Positions 992 to 27,732 of a stretch of DNA of 29,216 bases are shown piece after piece; the stretch's first letter is position 1, and the number at the start of each line of letters is the position of its first letter. The DNA is taken from the IMG/VR virus record IMGVR_UViG_3300026077_000016, positions 1 to 29,216 of that record. One strand, written 5' to 3'. Origin of the DNA: a virus. Made by a program: the position numbers and the translations under genes. Below the pieces are notes generated by a model that was not told where the DNA came from, ran no database searches, and saw only the letters and a list, made by a program, of their open reading frames with translations.

Positions 992-1711
992 ATGCCTTTA
1001 CCAACCATATCAACTCCAACTTATGAGTTGACTTTACCATCGTCAAGTAGAAAAATTAAATATCGCCCCTTTTTAGTAAAAGAGGAAAAGATTTTAATTA
1101 TTGCGATGGAATCACAGGATACTAAACAAATTGCTAGAGCAGTCAAAGATGTTTTAGCAAAGTGTATATTGACAAAAGGTATCAAAGTTGAAAAACTTGC
1201 CACCTTTGATATTGAATACTTATTTTTGAATATTCGTGGTAAATCTGTCGGAGAACATATTGAAGTGATGGTTACTTGTCCCGACGATAATAAAACACAA
1301 GTTCCGATGTCAATCAATATCGATGACATCAAGGTTCAAAAAGATAAAAGTCATTCTTCTGACATAGTTTTGGATGATACTTATACTTTAAAAATGAAAT
1401 ATCCTTCCTTGAACGAATTTATTAAAACAAATTTTGATCAAGTTGAAAACATGAAAGTTGATGACACATTTGATTTAATCTCATCTTGTATCGATCAAGT
1501 ATATTCTGATGAAGAAACTTGGTCACATCAAGAGTGTACTAAGAAAGAACTAACAGACTTTGTTGAATCACTTAATACAACTCAATTTAAAATGGTAGAG
1601 AATTTCTTTACAACAATGCCTAAATTATCTCATATAGTAAAGGTAACGAATCCAAATACAAAAGTTGATAGTGAAATTAAATTAGAGGGGCTGCAGAGTT
1701 TTTTCGGATAA
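992..1711 (+). CDS. 26: gp26/gp51-type baseplate hub protein; candidate tail assembly chaperone (zero-frame product)
   Basis: A 239-aa protein of the T4 baseplate family (gp26/gp51 type, usually 208-243 aa), which T4 needs to assemble the hub. Visible features are an N-terminal YELTLPSSSRKIKYRPF beta segment, a helical segment KQIARAVKDVLAKCI (about 45-59) and a C-terminal helical half. The last codons contain a T TTT TTC heptamer in slippery phase followed by a stem-loop. A -1 slip would skip the stop at 1709-1711 and fuse residue 238 to Arg-Ile-Ser and the 60-aa ORF at 1714, making about 301 aa. The gene is immediately upstream of tape-measure-like genes, which is where G/GT tail assembly chaperones lie in other tailed phages. 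Family membership is recognition; the chaperone role is inference. Confidence 0.72.
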   Translation: MPLPTISTPTYELTLPSSSRKIKYRPFLVKEEKILIIAMESQDTKQIARAVKDVLAKCILTKGIKVEKLATFDIEYLFLNIRGKSVGEHIEVMVTCPDDNKTQVPMSINIDDIKVQKDKSHSSDIVLDDTYTLKMKYPSLNEFIKTNFDQVENMKVDDTFDLISSCIDQVYSDEETWSHQECTKKELTDFVESLNTTQFKMVENFFTTMPKLSHIVKVTNPNTKVDSEIKLEGLQSFFG

Positions 1712-1741
1712 GTATGGCACACGAAGATCTAGTGTCATACT
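1699..1741 (+). promoter_or_regulatory. predicted programmed -1 ribosomal frameshift signal
   Basis: The heptamer T TTT TTC occupies 1699-1705, in X XXY YYZ phase for the frame starting at 992 (codons TTT 1700-1702, TTC 1703-1705). After a 5-nt spacer, AGTATGGCAC (1711-1720) pairs with GTGTCATACT (1732-1741): ten pairs including one G-U, with an 11-nt loop. A -1 slip gives CGG ATA AGT then ATG at 1714, with no stop before 1894. The stem also sequesters the ATG of the downstream ORF, whose upstream region lacks a strong Shine-Dalgarno. The geometry is seen directly; frameshifting itself is predicted. Confidence 0.72.
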
Positions 1742-1896
1742 ATAAGTTAAATTTTGCTCTAATGCAGCATCATAATTATAGTCTAACTGAACTTGAGAAT
1801 ATGATTCCGTGGGAGAGAGAAATTTACGTTTCACTTTTACAACAATATGTTGAAGAGGAAAATCTAAAAGCACAACAAAACAACAATAATGGATGA
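1714..1896 (+). CDS. 60-codon -1-frame partner of the gp26-like gene (gp51/T-like domain)
   Basis: A short acidic, helical ORF (60 aa) with the core YSLTELENMIPWEREIY. A PWxxE/MIPxERE segment in a small ORF just before the tape measure gene is typical of the T part of G/GT-type tail assembly chaperones, although marine T4-like phages often label this position a hub assembly protein. It lies in the -1 frame relative to the gp26-like gene, 2 nt after its stop. Its ATG is inside the predicted frameshift-stimulating stem. It is therefore probably made mainly as the C-terminus of a 301-aa fusion; independent initiation at the ATG remains possible. Its end overlaps the next gene by 8 nt. Confidence 0.65.
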   Translation: MAHEDLVSYYKLNFALMQHHNYSLTELENMIPWEREIYVSLLQQYVEEENLKAQQNNNNG

Positions 1897-3490
1897 GGAA
1901 CAAGGGTTACAATCCCCGTTAGCAGGAGGACTTAGAGGTATTAGAAGAAGCGTATCTTCTGGTATCTTTACAGGTCGTGCTGTTCCACCACCAGTTCAAC
2001 CAGATCCACAAACGACAAGTTTACTTAATCAAAATTCATTAACTTTAACAAGTGTCTCGTCACAACTATCTTCAATTTCAGATCAGATACTTTCTCTTAA
2101 TAATTCTCTTGGAGTTATAAAATCTAATTTAGATGTGAGTGATCAATTAGATAGACAGAGAGAAGCAGCAAAACAAAAAAGAGAAGCACAATTAGCAGAG
2201 CAAGGATTAAGGGAAGGAAAAGAATCAGAATTAGAAAGAAAAATACAAACTGCTTTACTTGCTCCAGTGCGTAGGGTTGCGACTTTTGCTAGAGGTATTT
2301 TAAGTAGATTGGGTGAATTTTTGTTTGTACTTACTGCGGGTTGGTTGACTGACAAAACTTTATCATTCATAAGACTTTCATCAGAGGGAAATATTGATAA
2401 ATTAAATGAATTTAAAAGGAAATTTCTATTTGACCTTGCTATTTTAGGTGGTATTGGTTTAGCAATAACAGTTGGTCTGTCAAAATTAGTAGCAACAATT
2501 GGATCAATTGCAGGACTTGCACTTAAATTTGCATTTTCAACATTATTAGTCGCACCATTTAAAGCAGCAATAAATTTTATAAGATATAATGTTGAAAATT
2601 TTGCTAAATTATTTTTTAAATATGCAAAACAATTAATTACAAATGCACCGAAAAGAATTTTTCAAGGAGGATTAGGAGGTGTATTGACTCCAGCACTGGG
2701 TATAGGTGGTGCGTTGTTATTTCCAAAACAAATAAAAAATTTCTTCAAATCAACATTCGGTAAGAAAGTAACAGGCGAAGCTGTGGAGGGTGTTACTAAG
2801 ACAGGTGCAAAAACGGGATTAAAAACTGGTTTAAAAAAATTAGGACCACTTGGAATAGGTATTGAATTAGCATTATCACCTTTATTCGGATTTTTTGATT
2901 ATAAAGACAGAAAAGAAAATCTAGGTCAAACAGAAGGACAGGCAAAAGCTGGAGCAACTGCAGAACAGCTTGGTGGATTAGCTGGTACTCTAATTGGATT
3001 AACTTTATTACCAGAACCACTAACAAGTGCCACTGGTTTAATAGGTCTTACATTATTAAGTATGTTCGGTGGATTTGGTGCTAGTAGTATAACTGATATA
3101 GTAACTGGGGCTAATCAGAATCAGAATCAGAATCAGGGGGTGCAATATGGTCCTGTTGAAGGAAGAGCAGATGGTGGTCCTGTTGAAGAGCGTAAACCTT
3201 ATAAAGTAGGAGAGAAGGGACCTGAAATATTCACTCCTGATGTATCTGGAATGATAACACCAATAAATTTAAAGAAAGAAACAAAAGTTTCAGAACTCAT
3301 AGCATCATTCGATCAATCAGCTGAAGTAACAGTTATTCCGATGAGCACATCAGAAAAGGGATTGCCAGCAAGTGCAACTATGACAAAGGCTTCAAAAACT
3401 CCGAGTGGTTCACTTCCTAATATTCCATCTTCAGATTTTGCAAATAGTTTCTTAGGATTCTCTGAATCTGTATATAATGTGGTGGTATAA
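1889..3490 (+). CDS. tape-measure-like tail/hub protein
   Basis: A 533-aa protein. Order: Pro-rich N-terminus; coiled-coil-prone Ser/Leu region (about 45-85); charged helix (about 85-118); a GILSRLGEFLFVLTAGWLTD amphipathic hairpin (about 135-155); long hydrophobic stretches (about 178-225 and 355-400); an Asn-Gln repeat; and a C-terminal RADGGPVxxxKPYKVGEKGPEIF motif. The last (GGPV...Y.VGE.GPE.F.P) is typical of tape-measure C-termini in many tailed phages. Tape measures set tail length and help DNA entry through the membrane; in T4 this is gp29, in the same hub cluster. Position after the 26/51-type pair and before gp27 agrees. I do not see direct similarity to T4 gp29, so this is a functional analogue call. 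Confidence 0.55.
   Translation: MDEEQGLQSPLAGGLRGIRRSVSSGIFTGRAVPPPVQPDPQTTSLLNQNSLTLTSVSSQLSSISDQILSLNNSLGVIKSNLDVSDQLDRQREAAKQKREAQLAEQGLREGKESELERKIQTALLAPVRRVATFARGILSRLGEFLFVLTAGWLTDKTLSFIRLSSEGNIDKLNEFKRKFLFDLAILGGIGLAITVGLSKLVATIGSIAGLALKFAFSTLLVAPFKAAINFIRYNVENFAKLFFKYAKQLITNAPKRIFQGGLGGVLTPALGIGGALLFPKQIKNFFKSTFGKKVTGEAVEGVTKTGAKTGLKTGLKKLGPLGIGIELALSPLFGFFDYKDRKENLGQTEGQAKAGATAEQLGGLAGTLIGLTLLPEPLTSATGLIGLTLLSMFGGFGASSITDIVTGANQNQNQNQGVQYGPVEGRADGGPVEERKPYKVGEKGPEIFTPDVSGMITPINLKKETKVSELIASFDQSAEVTVIPMSTSEKGLPASATMTKASKTPSGSLPNIPSSDFANSFLGFSESVYNVVV
3113..3136 (+). repeat. (AATCAG)4 hexamer tandem repeat
   Basis: Four exact copies of AATCAG in frame in the tape-measure-like gene, encoding an alternating Asn-Gln linker just before the GGPV/VGEKGPE motif. 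Copy-number change would keep the frame and alter linker length by two residues per unit. Confidence 0.9.
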
Positions 3491-4887
3491 TGTCTATTAA
3501 GAAAAGAAGAGATTCATTATTAAAATCAAATCTCAGTATTAATAAAATAAGAGATTCAGCGGTAAACTTTACTAAAGGTTTGATGCGTTCAAGACAGACT
3601 GCATCTGAAATTGTAAACAAAACAAATGAAAATAATAAATTCAAGAGAACGTTAATTGGAAATGATAATAGTTTTTTTGTTAAGAGAAGAGAAAATGCAA
3701 GAAGAAGACAGAGAGAAGATGAATTAGAGGCAGCAACAGTTCAAGGAACAACAAAGAGACAAGGTAGTGTTGTTTCAAGAAGTACAAAAGGTTTTCTTGG
3801 TAGAATACTAGATTTCTTTGGTATTGTCTTGATAGGATGGTTTGTCAATACTCTACCTCAAATTTTAAAATCTATTCAGGGATTGATAAAAAGAATACAA
3901 GGAGTGATAACTATTCTTACTGGTTTCATGAATGATATAGGAGATTTTTTGATTGGTATAGGTGGAGGAATATCGACAGCTCTTCAATCATTAAGATCAG
4001 GAGTAGATTTATTGATGTTAAGAAAACAGAATGATGAAAGTCTTGAGTCTGCAAATAATAATTTGAATAAAGTGAGAAAAGATATGTTAACCACAGGTAT
4101 ACTTTATAATAATCCAGCAGCTGCTGGATTGCCTGATTATTCAGGAGAAACATTATTAAGAACACCATTAGATGATGCAGTAGAAGAGGAGAATAAAGAT
4201 GATAGTAAATCACAAGATCAGAAATCTACATCAGATAAAAATGTAGAGGGTAGAGATGATACCAAACAGTTTGATAGTATTACACCAGAGAGTACAAAGA
4301 CTGAAACACAAAAGGATGATGACCCTAATAATGAAAACTTTATTCAAGGAATAAAAGACGACAAAGAAATTAAACAAGATATGTCAGATAAGGCTCAGAG
4401 TAAAGGTGATACTATTGATGAAAGAAATGATGAAAATGATTTAGATAATAAGAAAAAAAATGATGATATTGGACTCGTTCAGGGAGTTAAAAATTTTATA
4501 TCTGGTTTTTTTGGCGGTGATGGACAACAACAGTCAGATAATCAAAAAAGAGAAACAGATAGTAAGAAAGATAATAGTTCGTCAGTAAGTGGTGCTGTAA
4601 CTAAAATAAAACAGATAGCAACTGATGCTGGTAAACAAATGAAAGGTGAGAAGAAAAATTTTAATGTAGAACCTTCAAAGAGAGAAAGAGGTAATATGAA
4701 TACTAATAAAAATAAAAATAGAAATCAAGTTGTCATTATTGAAAAAGGTGTACCAATTAATAATCCAAACCCCCCATCTGGTGGTAGCGGTGGTGGATCT
4801 AGCTTAAATAGTCTTGATGGACTTCAAGATTCTGATGCGATGAAAAAAGGAATTAAAAAACTTCAATCAGTTATACTTGCAAACTAA
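3490..4887 (+). CDS. second tape-measure-like or hub-associated protein, paralogous architecture
   Basis: A 465-aa protein coupled to the previous gene by a TAATG overlap. Its N-terminus is basic with many Arg/Lys (residues 1-90), then a KGFLGRILDFFGIVLIGWFVN segment (about 100-120) that aligns in character with GILSRLGEFLFVLTAGWLTD of the preceding protein, then hydrophobic helices to about 175. From about 225 to 400 it is highly charged, Asp/Lys/Asn-rich and likely disordered, and it ends after a PxPPSGGSGGGSS linker. The shared basic-plus-hairpin architecture suggests duplication or a common partner. It sits where T4 has genes 28/29. I do not recognise a specific family, and function beyond tail interior or hub is inferred. 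Confidence 0.5.
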   Translation: MSIKKRRDSLLKSNLSINKIRDSAVNFTKGLMRSRQTASEIVNKTNENNKFKRTLIGNDNSFFVKRRENARRRQREDELEAATVQGTTKRQGSVVSRSTKGFLGRILDFFGIVLIGWFVNTLPQILKSIQGLIKRIQGVITILTGFMNDIGDFLIGIGGGISTALQSLRSGVDLLMLRKQNDESLESANNNLNKVRKDMLTTGILYNNPAAAGLPDYSGETLLRTPLDDAVEEENKDDSKSQDQKSTSDKNVEGRDDTKQFDSITPESTKTETQKDDDPNNENFIQGIKDDKEIKQDMSDKAQSKGDTIDERNDENDLDNKKKNDDIGLVQGVKNFISGFFGGDGQQQSDNQKRETDSKKDNSSSVSGAVTKIKQIATDAGKQMKGEKKNFNVEPSKRERGNMNTNKNKNRNQVVIIEKGVPINNPNPPSGGSGGGSSLNSLDGLQDSDAMKKGIKKLQSVILAN

Positions 4888-24579: not shown

Positions 24580-25767
24580 ATGCAACTAAGACCACATCAA
24601 GAGCAAGCAATACAATCAATGTTAGACAATGACAAAGGACAAGTCATTGTTCCTACTGGTGGTGGTAAGACCATCTGTATGATTATGGATGCTGTCAAGC
24701 AGTTGGAAGATTATGGTACAGTTGTAGTCGTTGCACCACGCATATTACTTGCAGAGCAACTATGCAAAGAGTTTATGGAAATCATTGATAAGAAATACAA
24801 TGATGTAGATGTGATGCACGTTCATAGTGGTAAAATCAAGGGTATGTTCAGCACCACTAATCCACTTGAGATACAGGGATTTGTTGAACAGAATTTAGTA
24901 AATTTCTTCAGTAGAACTATTATATTTACAACATATCATTCATTACACAGGATTGAAGAAAGTGGTATTGATGTTGATACTATCTACTTTGATGAAGCAC
25001 ACAACTCAGTACAGAAAAACTTTTTCCCTGCTACTGATTACTTCTCACAGTATGCAGGTAGATGCTATTTCTTTACAGCAACACCAAAGCATAGTCGTTC
25101 TCCTGTCAAGGCAGGGATGAACTGGACAGAGGTGTATGGTGGTGTGATATGTCAAGTACCTGCACCAAAGTTAGTCAAGCAAGGTTACATCCTACCACCT
25201 AAAGTCAAGGTGTATCGTTCAAGAATACTCAAGAAAGATGAGTTAGTTGCAGACAGAGACAATGAGCAAATGATTGGTGCGATTGACAATCTTGATAAGG
25301 ACAAAGTATTGATATGTGCTAAGTCAACCAGACAGATTGTTGCACTTGTATCACAGACAGATTTCGTACAGCAACTTGCTATTCGTGGTTACTCTTATAT
25401 GTTTATCACAGCAAAGACAGGTGCGATGATTGATGGAGAGAAGGTTGACAGAGAGACATTCTTTGATACACTAAATCAATGGGGTAGAACAGACAAAAAG
25501 TTTGTTGTATTGCATCACAGCATACTCTCAGAGGGTATCAATGTCAATGGTCTTGAAGCAGTATTGTTTATGCGTTCGATGGATTACATAGGTATTAGTC
25601 AGACAATCGGTAGAGTTATTCGTAAGGGCGATGCTGACAAAGTATTTGGTCTTGTATGTGTACCAGTATATTCAAATGTTGGTATTACTACCGCAAGAAA
25701 GGTCGAAGCAGTTGTTGATACAATATTCAACAAAGGACAGGCAGCAACTACAGTTATTACACGATGA
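24580..25767 (+). CDS. SF2 DNA/RNA helicase, UvsW-like
   Basis: A 395-aa protein with a full set of superfamily 2 motifs: LRPHQEQAI (Q-motif region, 3-11), PTGGGKT (Walker A, 25-31), APRILLAEQL, TTYHSL, DEAH (138-141), TATP (166-169), LHHSILSEGINV and QTIGRVIR (341-348, with the arginine fingers). It has both RecA-like domains but is much shorter than T4 UvsW (about 587 aa), with no N-terminal DNA-binding extension. UvsW unwinds R-loops and branched DNA in replication and recombination and shuts off origin-dependent initiation. That role is plausible here, but another SF2 helicase type is possible. First of four ATGA-coupled genes. Confidence 0.72.
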   Translation: MQLRPHQEQAIQSMLDNDKGQVIVPTGGGKTICMIMDAVKQLEDYGTVVVVAPRILLAEQLCKEFMEIIDKKYNDVDVMHVHSGKIKGMFSTTNPLEIQGFVEQNLVNFFSRTIIFTTYHSLHRIEESGIDVDTIYFDEAHNSVQKNFFPATDYFSQYAGRCYFFTATPKHSRSPVKAGMNWTEVYGGVICQVPAPKLVKQGYILPPKVKVYRSRILKKDELVADRDNEQMIGAIDNLDKDKVLICAKSTRQIVALVSQTDFVQQLAIRGYSYMFITAKTGAMIDGEKVDRETFFDTLNQWGRTDKKFVVLHHSILSEGINVNGLEAVLFMRSMDYIGISQTIGRVIRKGDADKVFGLVCVPVYSNVGITTARKVEAVVDTIFNKGQAATTVITR

Positions 25768-26201
25768 GTAAAATAGTATTAGTCACAGGTGGATTTGACC
25801 CCATACATACAGGTCATATCTCATACTTTAAAAATGCGAAAGAGTTATATCCAAACACACCTCTATGTGTAGGATTAAATTCTGATGATTGGTTAATTCG
25901 TAAGAAAGGAAAGTATTTCCTACCAATGACAGAGAGAAGAGCGATAGTCAAAGAACTTAAACCAGTTGACTTGACAATCACTTATGACGATACTGACAAC
26001 TCATCTTGTATGGCAATCTACAAGTGTTTACAAATGTATGATAAAGTGATATTTTGTAATGGAGGAGACAGAGTAAACACAAATGTACCAGAGTATCTTA
26101 AATTCCAAGAGAATGAAAGAGTTATCTTTGAGTGGGGTGTTGGTGGCGATGATAAGATGAATAGTAGTAGTTGGATTTTAAATGAGTTTTTGAAACGATG
26201 A
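25764..26201 (+). CDS. cytidylyltransferase-fold nucleotidyltransferase
   Basis: A 145-aa protein with the nucleotidyltransferase alpha/beta phosphodiesterase signature: GGFDPIHTGHISYF (9-22, with HxGH at 15-18) and a C-terminal SSS segment (NSSSWIL, near 133-139) in place of the usual ISSTxxR. The length and motifs fit the glycerol-3-phosphate cytidylyltransferase/HldE-C/PF01467 group, which joins CTP or ATP to a phosphorylated sugar or alcohol. The substrate cannot be read from sequence. It is coupled by ATGA on both sides to helicase and zinc-ribbon genes, an odd setting for cell-envelope sugar metabolism. Confidence 0.78.
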   Translation: MSKIVLVTGGFDPIHTGHISYFKNAKELYPNTPLCVGLNSDDWLIRKKGKYFLPMTERRAIVKELKPVDLTITYDDTDNSSCMAIYKCLQMYDKVIFCNGGDRVNTNVPEYLKFQENERVIFEWGVGGDDKMNSSSWILNEFLKR

Positions 26202-26614
26202 AATTACAAAAAGCAGAATTTGTTTACAAAATGGTACAAGGGGGTTATAATTATGAAGATATTGCTCGTGTTATTAAGATAAAAAAACTTAATATACCAT
26301 CTGACAATTTTACACTCAAAACATTATATGCCTTGTACAGAGACTCAAATAAATGCGTAAATCCAGTTTTTAATTCATACATTGATAGATTAATCGAACA
26401 AGAAAGTAAATCAGAGGAGGAAACTTGGCAAGAATTATTTGGAGAGCAAGAGAGAACTATGGATTGGAAAGTTAAATTTGCTTGTAATGACCCTGAGTGT
26501 GATTCTCTATACAGTAGAGATATAAAAATGCACGATGGTCACGCACATTATGGTCAAAGAAGATGCCTAGTGTGTGATAAACATATAAAATGGATACCCT
26601 ACCCAATATTATGA
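26198..26614 (+). CDS. putative zinc-ribbon/HTH protein
   Basis: A 138-aa protein. The N-terminus (FVYKMVQGGYNYEDIARVIKIKK, 8-30) looks like a short helix-turn-helix, of the kind in which a helix is followed by GYS..EIA..L. The C-terminus carries CNDPEC (96-101) and CLVCDKHIKWIP (123-134), four cysteines able to hold zinc, with an intervening HDGHAHYG histidine cluster. It may bind DNA or be a small accessory to the methyltransferase that follows by ATGA overlap. No family recognised. Confidence 0.6.
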   Translation: MKLQKAEFVYKMVQGGYNYEDIARVIKIKKLNIPSDNFTLKTLYALYRDSNKCVNPVFNSYIDRLIEQESKSEEETWQELFGEQERTMDWKVKFACNDPECDSLYSRDIKMHDGHAHYGQRRCLVCDKHIKWIPYPIL

Positions 26615-27732
26615 AAAACAAAATTTTATTTGGAAACTGCCAAGAAACATTAAAACAATTTGCACCTAATAGTGCAAGAACTTGTGTTACTTCTCCACCA
26701 TATTATGGATTGAGAGATTATGGAACTGCTACTTGGATAGGTGGCGACCCTAATTGTTCTCACAAGAGAGATAGTAAGGTTAAAGCAGAGAATTGTAACA
26801 CAGGACATAAGAACCACGATGATATGGCAGGGGTAGGCGATGCCATATACAAAACAGTATGCCCGAAGTGTGGTGCAATCAGGCAAGATAGTCAGATTGG
26901 ATTGGAAGAAACACCAGAGGAATATGTCGAAAAACTTGTAAACGTATTTAAGGAGGTGCGAAATGTGCTTACAGATGATGGAACTTGTTGGGTTAATCTT
27001 GGGGATAGTTACTATAATTACAGACCTGGAAAAGGACAAGGACTACCAAAACAAAGTGTCTCAACTACTAAACAAGACTTACCAGATATGTGTTCTCGCA
27101 GAGGAAATCGAATCGAAGGACTCAAAGAAAAAGACCTTATTGGAATCCCATGGCTCTTCGCTTTCGCAATGAGAAATGATGGGTGGTATCTACGTCAGGA
27201 TATTATATGGCATAAACCAAATCCAATGCCAGAGAGTGTGAGAGACAGATGTACGAAGTCTCACGAATATATATTTTTGTTCAGTAAAAACAGAAAATAT
27301 CACTACGATAATGAAGCAATCAAAGAACCCGCAAAAGATTGGGGAACAAGAGACAGAACCAACGGAAAATATCACAACGAAGGAACAGGACTATCGCCAC
27401 ATACAGGACTTACAAAATCATATCCAACAAAGAATAAACGCTCTGTCTGGTCAGTAACAGTAAAACCATATAAGGAAGCACATTTTGCAACATATCCACC
27501 TGACTTGATTGAACCTTGCATATTAGCAGGGAGTGAGAAAGGAGACACAGTACTTGACCCATTTATGGGTGCAGGAACCACAGCTGCAGTAGCAAAGGCA
27601 CTTGGTAGAAATTATATTGGATGTGAACTTAATGAAAACTATGGTAGTCTAATTGAAAAAAGAATCAATGATTATCAACCAGTTAAAGAAGTGGCACAAG
27701 AACCTTGCATAAACATCTTGGATATTATATAA
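26611..27732 (+). CDS. DNA methyltransferase, beta-class with TSPPYY motif, zinc-finger insert
   Basis: A 373-aa protein starting at the ATGA overlap (26611). Motif IV TSPPYYGLRDY (27-37) precedes motif I DPFMGAGTT (316-324), the beta-class order. SPPY is typical of N4-cytosine enzymes, while D/NPPY marks most N6-adenine ones, so N4-cytosine is favoured but not certain. An insert after motif IV (about 45-92) has Cys49, His51, Cys62 and CPKC (84-87), suggesting a zinc-binding part. C-terminal YPPDLIEPCILAGSEKGDTVLDPFMGAGTTAAVAKALGRNYIGCELNENY is standard. No restriction endonuclease is near; an orphan phage enzyme protecting DNA or marking it for regulation is likely. Confidence 0.85.
   Translation: MKNKILFGNCQETLKQFAPNSARTCVTSPPYYGLRDYGTATWIGGDPNCSHKRDSKVKAENCNTGHKNHDDMAGVGDAIYKTVCPKCGAIRQDSQIGLEETPEEYVEKLVNVFKEVRNVLTDDGTCWVNLGDSYYNYRPGKGQGLPKQSVSTTKQDLPDMCSRRGNRIEGLKEKDLIGIPWLFAFAMRNDGWYLRQDIIWHKPNPMPESVRDRCTKSHEYIFLFSKNRKYHYDNEAIKEPAKDWGTRDRTNGKYHNEGTGLSPHTGLTKSYPTKNKRSVWSVTVKPYKEAHFATYPPDLIEPCILAGSEKGDTVLDPFMGAGTTAAVAKALGRNYIGCELNENYGSLIEKRINDYQPVKEVAQEPCINILDII

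Follow-up and report, generated by a model that had tools for sequence, protein, structure and literature searches.

The window, a 29,216-nt (29.2 kb) stretch of marine phage DNA from virus record IMGVR_UViG_3300026077_000016, carries on its plus strand a gp26-like gene (992..1711) encoding 239 amino acids. This gene belongs to the PF12322 T4_baseplate family (E = 3.2e-73; score 246.5 bits, cut-off 24.5) and matches the baseplate hub family phrog_150 (E = 2e-77), and its protein is matched by 692 phage records at E ≤ 1e-3; we read it as the short form of a tail assembly chaperone (TAC-N). It ends T TTT TTC GGA TAA, with the stop codon at 1709–1711, and a 60-codon ORF (1714–1896, stop at 1894–1896) lies in the -1 frame. 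From the heptamer T TTT TTC (1699..1705), whose 0-frame codons are TTT (1700–1702) and TTC (1703–1705), the -1 frame remains open through the junction and gives an extension (1705..1896) of 63 codons plus a stop, which is conserved and matches the baseplate hub assembly catalyst family phrog_634 (E = 5.1e-28). This extension would form the C-terminal domain of a long form (TAC-NC) of 238 + 63 = 301 aa, with SFFRISMAHEDL as the predicted peptide spanning the junction. Upstream of the heptamer is the Shine-Dalgarno-like sequence GAGG (1685..1688); downstream, a 5-nt spacer (1706..1710) that takes in the first bases of the gp26 stop codon leads into a stem (arms at 1711..1720 and 1732..1741), and a 533-aa gene (1889..3490) follows, all on the plus strand. 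The earlier note had described the heptamer in the slippery phase of the 992 frame, the ORF at 1714 in the -1 frame with no stop between, and products of 239 and 301 aa, and on these points its observation is correct.

The heptamer is invariant among close relatives. When the window was compared with the nearest 80 of at least 600 contigs encoding relatives (64–95% identical, and thus not a random draw), TTTTTTC was found in phase just before the gp26 stop in 81 of 81 sequences, and the -1 frame was open at the junction in the 80 close contigs, two of which end shortly past it. No codon of the gene is better conserved than the two phenylalanine codons, F237 and F238: they are invariant in 78 of 78 distinct genes and rank first and second among 104 columns of conserved degenerate codons (median 74%). 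At other Phe-Phe sites of these genes, the spelling TTTTTC occurs in 4 of 81 cases. A pseudogene or a sequencing frameshift was rejected because the same frame layout recurs in more than 100 loci from many contigs and isolates. T runs can also provoke slippage of RNA polymerase, which would place an extra U in some transcripts of the T6 run and leave the ribosome out of the event altogether, and the run is seven T long rather than six in phages pf16, Atu_ph04, and phiN3. Sequence alone cannot fully separate the two processes. Six T are nevertheless short for transcriptional slippage, and the strict reading phase, the C that always comes next in the 81 close sequences, the fixed distance of GAGG, and the downstream stem all fit slippage by the ribosome, so we regard polymerase slippage as very improbable.

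A ribosomal slip must also be weighed against the reading found in the databases, in which the 60-codon ORF stands as a gene of its own (gp51), expressed by re-initiation at the ATG at 1714, 2 nt after the gp26 stop, and the T run is incidental. An ATG does follow the stop directly in the window and in most close relatives, public records annotate the -1 ORF as "gp51" started at the ATG equivalent to 1714 (e.g., P-SSM2 gp51), and none of the public records that we examined joins both frames. However, the heptamer is invariant down to silent bases, and not every lineage has the ATG. Three of the 80 contigs (L067, L068, and L075) have none in the 12 nt past the gp26 stop, and the same is true of pf16, Aeromonas avDM6, and Variovorax V45v66; nor is there one near the junction in eight reference cyanophages of eight genera (S-CAM8, S-RIM50, ACG-2014b, ACG-2014d, S-RIM2, P-TIM40, S-MbCM100, and Syn19). 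The first ATG in these reference cyanophages comes 53–95 nt after the stop; P-TIM40 has a TTG 8 nt after it. Because conservation of the C-domain in 22 relatives begins with the first residues past the slip, the whole domain would be reachable in lineages with no junction ATG only by a change of frame. In the records of these lineages the second gene is annotated as truncated or is absent, and the C-domain is thus left truncated or unannotated. By the same reading, the small annotated cyanophage "gp51" genes would be the tail end of a longer protein.

The T4-type proteins point the same way. In RB3, a relative of T4, genes 26 and 51 are encoded on opposite strands, and T4-type gp51 itself carries the gp26 domain in frame, matching PF12322 over residues 1–201 with the C-domain after that; T4-type gp26, also a match to PF12322, stops where the short form does. 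A C-domain profile built without T4 matched gp51 residues 200–247 at E = 1.9e-5 (best of 1000 shuffles, 0.36). Since gp51 thus consists of the N-domain and the C-domain in frame and gp26 of the N-domain, the comparison supports equating T4-type gp51 with an in-frame version of the fusion, and gp26 with the short form. Cyanophage gp51 has been described as being without ∼200 N-terminal residues (Sullivan et al., PMC3037559), which would be absent because the frameshift supplies them. Together with the burial of the ATG in a conserved stem (see below), these findings make a separate gp51 gene a poor explanation, to which we give very little credence; where the ATG exists, it may still yield a small extra amount of free C-domain.

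In the window, AGTATGGCAC (1711–1720) pairs with GTGTCATACT (1732–1741) to form 10 bp, one of them G-U, around an 11-nt loop, which confirms the bases, the 5-nt spacer, and the stem that had been proposed. The ATG at 1714 lies within the conserved 5′ arm, so the stem does cover the start of the 60-codon ORF, as the same proposal held. The 47-nt hairpin segment has a predicted free energy of −12.8 kcal/mol (z = −3.6), matched by 1 of 200 shuffles, and no other of the 261 slippery-type heptamers that the contig carries on its two strands is followed by a 31-nt fold as stable as that after 1699–1705. Across 43 distinct junctions, 92.1% of cells are paired, as compared to 23–51% (maximum 50.5%) in slid controls. 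Covariation reached 0.188 versus 0.110 in shuffles, a value attained in 0 of 500 shuffles, but it rests mostly on one position, because double changes occur only at 1719/1733 and in one further cell. That pair alternates among A-U, U-A, and G-C, with 20 double changes, and it joins the silent third base of an Ala codon (1719) to the second base of codon 1732–1734 (Val, Glu, or Ala); RNA pairing rather than protein sequence thus accounts for its covariation.

The stem is not a general feature, as had been expected of it, and that expectation was rejected: it is missing in many cyanophage lineages that keep the heptamer, and so it is not essential everywhere. Alignment of homologues, which the earlier note had put forward as a check, therefore upheld the slippery site through its invariance, the compensatory stem pair, and the ATG-less relatives, and did not uphold the stem as a constant partner. 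Loss of the stem lends no support to a separate 60-aa protein, because those stem-less lineages also lack the ATG, as the three contigs and the eight reference cyanophages do. Within the frameshift model, the stem could instead serve mainly in translation control or mRNA processing, blocking the ATG, with heptamer and GAGG sufficient for the slip, given that many stem-less lineages keep both and that stem and ATG tend to co-occur. Its start 5 nt after the heptamer is, however, a typical stimulator distance, and phage B23 has the ATG without a clear stem; we consider such a restricted role unlikely, if still worth keeping in mind. As a separate observation, in S-H34-like phages (L082, L093, L096–L098, and L100) the same heptamer leads into another stem, of 9 bp (ATGATGCAC/GTGCATCAT), and its TTC is directly followed by the stop codon.

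A further correction to the account in the earlier note concerns the GAGG, which it omitted. This sequence sits exactly 10 nt upstream of the heptamer in the window and in 12 of 14 other cyanophage references checked, including those with no stem, and its Glu codon is strongly biased toward GAG (74:7, versus 552:1277 elsewhere in the gene). Kept more widely than the stem, it seems to be the most general accessory element in Kyanoviridae. Because the Glu-Gly motif is also conserved at the protein level, codon bias and fixed position are only suggestive of an internal Shine-Dalgarno stimulator.

Further from the window, T TTT TTN was found in phase in every cyanophage reference examined, and also in phages of Pseudomonas (pf16), Stenotrophomonas (YB07 group and DLP6), Aeromonas, Vibrio (EniLVp02), Variovorax, Agrobacterium, Rhizobium, and Sinorhizobium; the second ORF is open in the shifted frame across the junction in homologues, as expected of a frameshifted tail assembly chaperone of the lambda G/GT type. 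The -1 C-domain is kept in the Vibrio D506, VAP7, and Kuttervirus relatives with no canonical heptamer and with only 4–5 T, and Kuttervirus has no junction ATG either. The gp26 3′ ends of these relatives (L086, L087, L090, and L106–L115) read CTTTTC, GTTTTTC, or ATTTTC, and GTTTTT is reported as the motif in Vandenendeviridae (PMC12846349). No matches came from scanning the contigs with gp26 of Vibrio D506 and of Agrobacterium. In Campylobacter CP21, gp26 lacks a long -1 extension and the following gene is not gp51-like.

The 533-aa gene lies directly downstream of the pair; its identity comes from weak family matches, position, and length variation, and we call it a probable tape measure protein. 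Its own match is weak (phrog_10574, E = 1.3e-5), a homologue (L063) matches phrog_167 at E = 4.6e-14, and homologues range from 426 to 729 aa. It has no detectable similarity to T4-type gp29; a gp29 homologue was therefore rejected, and the tape measure identity is held to be probable and not firmer. Two relatives show how this gene varies: in L060 (3146–5332) an N-terminal coiled-coil segment is repeated in tandem, which apparently stretches the protein to 729 aa, and the L079 version (1844–3688) includes an endolysin-type domain (phrog_1200, E = 1.3e-15) that the window copy lacks. Tape measure proteins often carry endolysin domains. Elsewhere in the window, at 24580–27732 and not far downstream of the tail genes, a DNA helicase gene of fragment size (395 aa) aligns with the central part of phrog_16; after it come small ORFs and a gene for a DNA methyltransferase. 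The predicted structure of gp26 is a good model (pLDDT 88.5) that matches other phage gp26 proteins; a fold search of the PDB gave as its top hit HK97 gp13 (2ob9), a tail assembly chaperone, at a non-significant E = 0.74, and searching PDB sequences with the gp26 profile gave no match.

Taken together, the invariant heptamer, the compensatory stem pair, and the ATG-less relatives back the programmed -1 frameshift claimed by the earlier note, and we hold with high confidence that a minority slip fuses the gp26-like gene to the short second ORF, yielding a short and a long tail chaperone. Most ribosomes would stop at 1709–1711 and release the 239-aa form; a minority would move one base back while tRNA-Phe occupies TTT and TTC, and would read the -1 frame into the 301-aa form, which would thereby gain a small C-terminal domain. 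Pairing of GAGG with 16S rRNA 10 nt upstream probably aids the slip, as the downstream stem probably does, and the stem would also hide the only nearby ATG. The slip, its efficiency, and the part of each stimulator are deduced from sequence; from homology, position, and analogy with lambda G/GT we infer chaperone action, in which the abundant short form would coat the tape measure protein and the scarce long form would recruit the tail tube protein. This is in keeping with the view that genes 26 and 51 of T4, known for years as hub assembly factors with no clear role, are the two forms of a tape-measure chaperone. More tentatively, and with somewhat more doubt than belief, cyanophage tail chaperones might share a three-part dnaX-like signal in which GAGG and heptamer are ancestral and the stem is lineage-specific, with an accidental ATG, both stimulating the slip and preventing a lone C-domain, Ackermannviridae-type relatives having shifted to a different, non-canonical slip site.

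In Escherichia coli dnaX, a Shine-Dalgarno-like element lies ∼10 nt upstream of a slippery heptamer, with a stem a few nt downstream. The window shares this layout of upstream element, heptamer, and downstream stem with dnaX, but the heptamer and the gene are different, and the stem is not universal in cyanophages. The slippery site of phage lambda is G GGA AAG, as compared to T TTT TTC in the window. Frameshifting reportedly appears conserved in several T4-like groups, with T4 said to use genes 26 and 51. Like the window, T4 has an N-domain protein (gp26) and a protein with N-domain plus C-domain (gp51); unlike it, T4 encodes them as two separate genes with no frameshift between them. In lambda gpG/gpGT (Xu, Hendrix & Duda 2004), as in the window, the frames overlap; a -1 slip near the end of the first, as proposed for the window, puts the C-domain in the minor product only, and the pair sits before the tape measure gene, the probable identity of the next gene in the window. 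Lambda gpG and T4 gp26 would both be counterparts of the short form; no sequence similarity has been shown between the lambda and window proteins. Closest of all, tail assembly chaperones in T4-like phages have been reported by Vladimirov, Gautam & Davidson (2022, Virology 566:9–15, PMID 34826709), and these reportedly share with the arrangement proposed for the window a gp26-like short form alongside a longer one that bears a C-terminal domain, some groups using frameshifting and T4's group separate genes. Two articles citing it describe some T4-like phages with a short and a long gene in place of frameshifting (PMC10885494) and poly-T slippery sequences in TAC-N genes of T4-like phages (PMC12846349). 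Given the 2022 precedent, the window arrangement is correctly identified but of an already published kind; the covarying stem, the upstream GAGG, the AUG-less lineages, and the non-canonical sites in Ackermannviridae-type relatives are likely additions to it.
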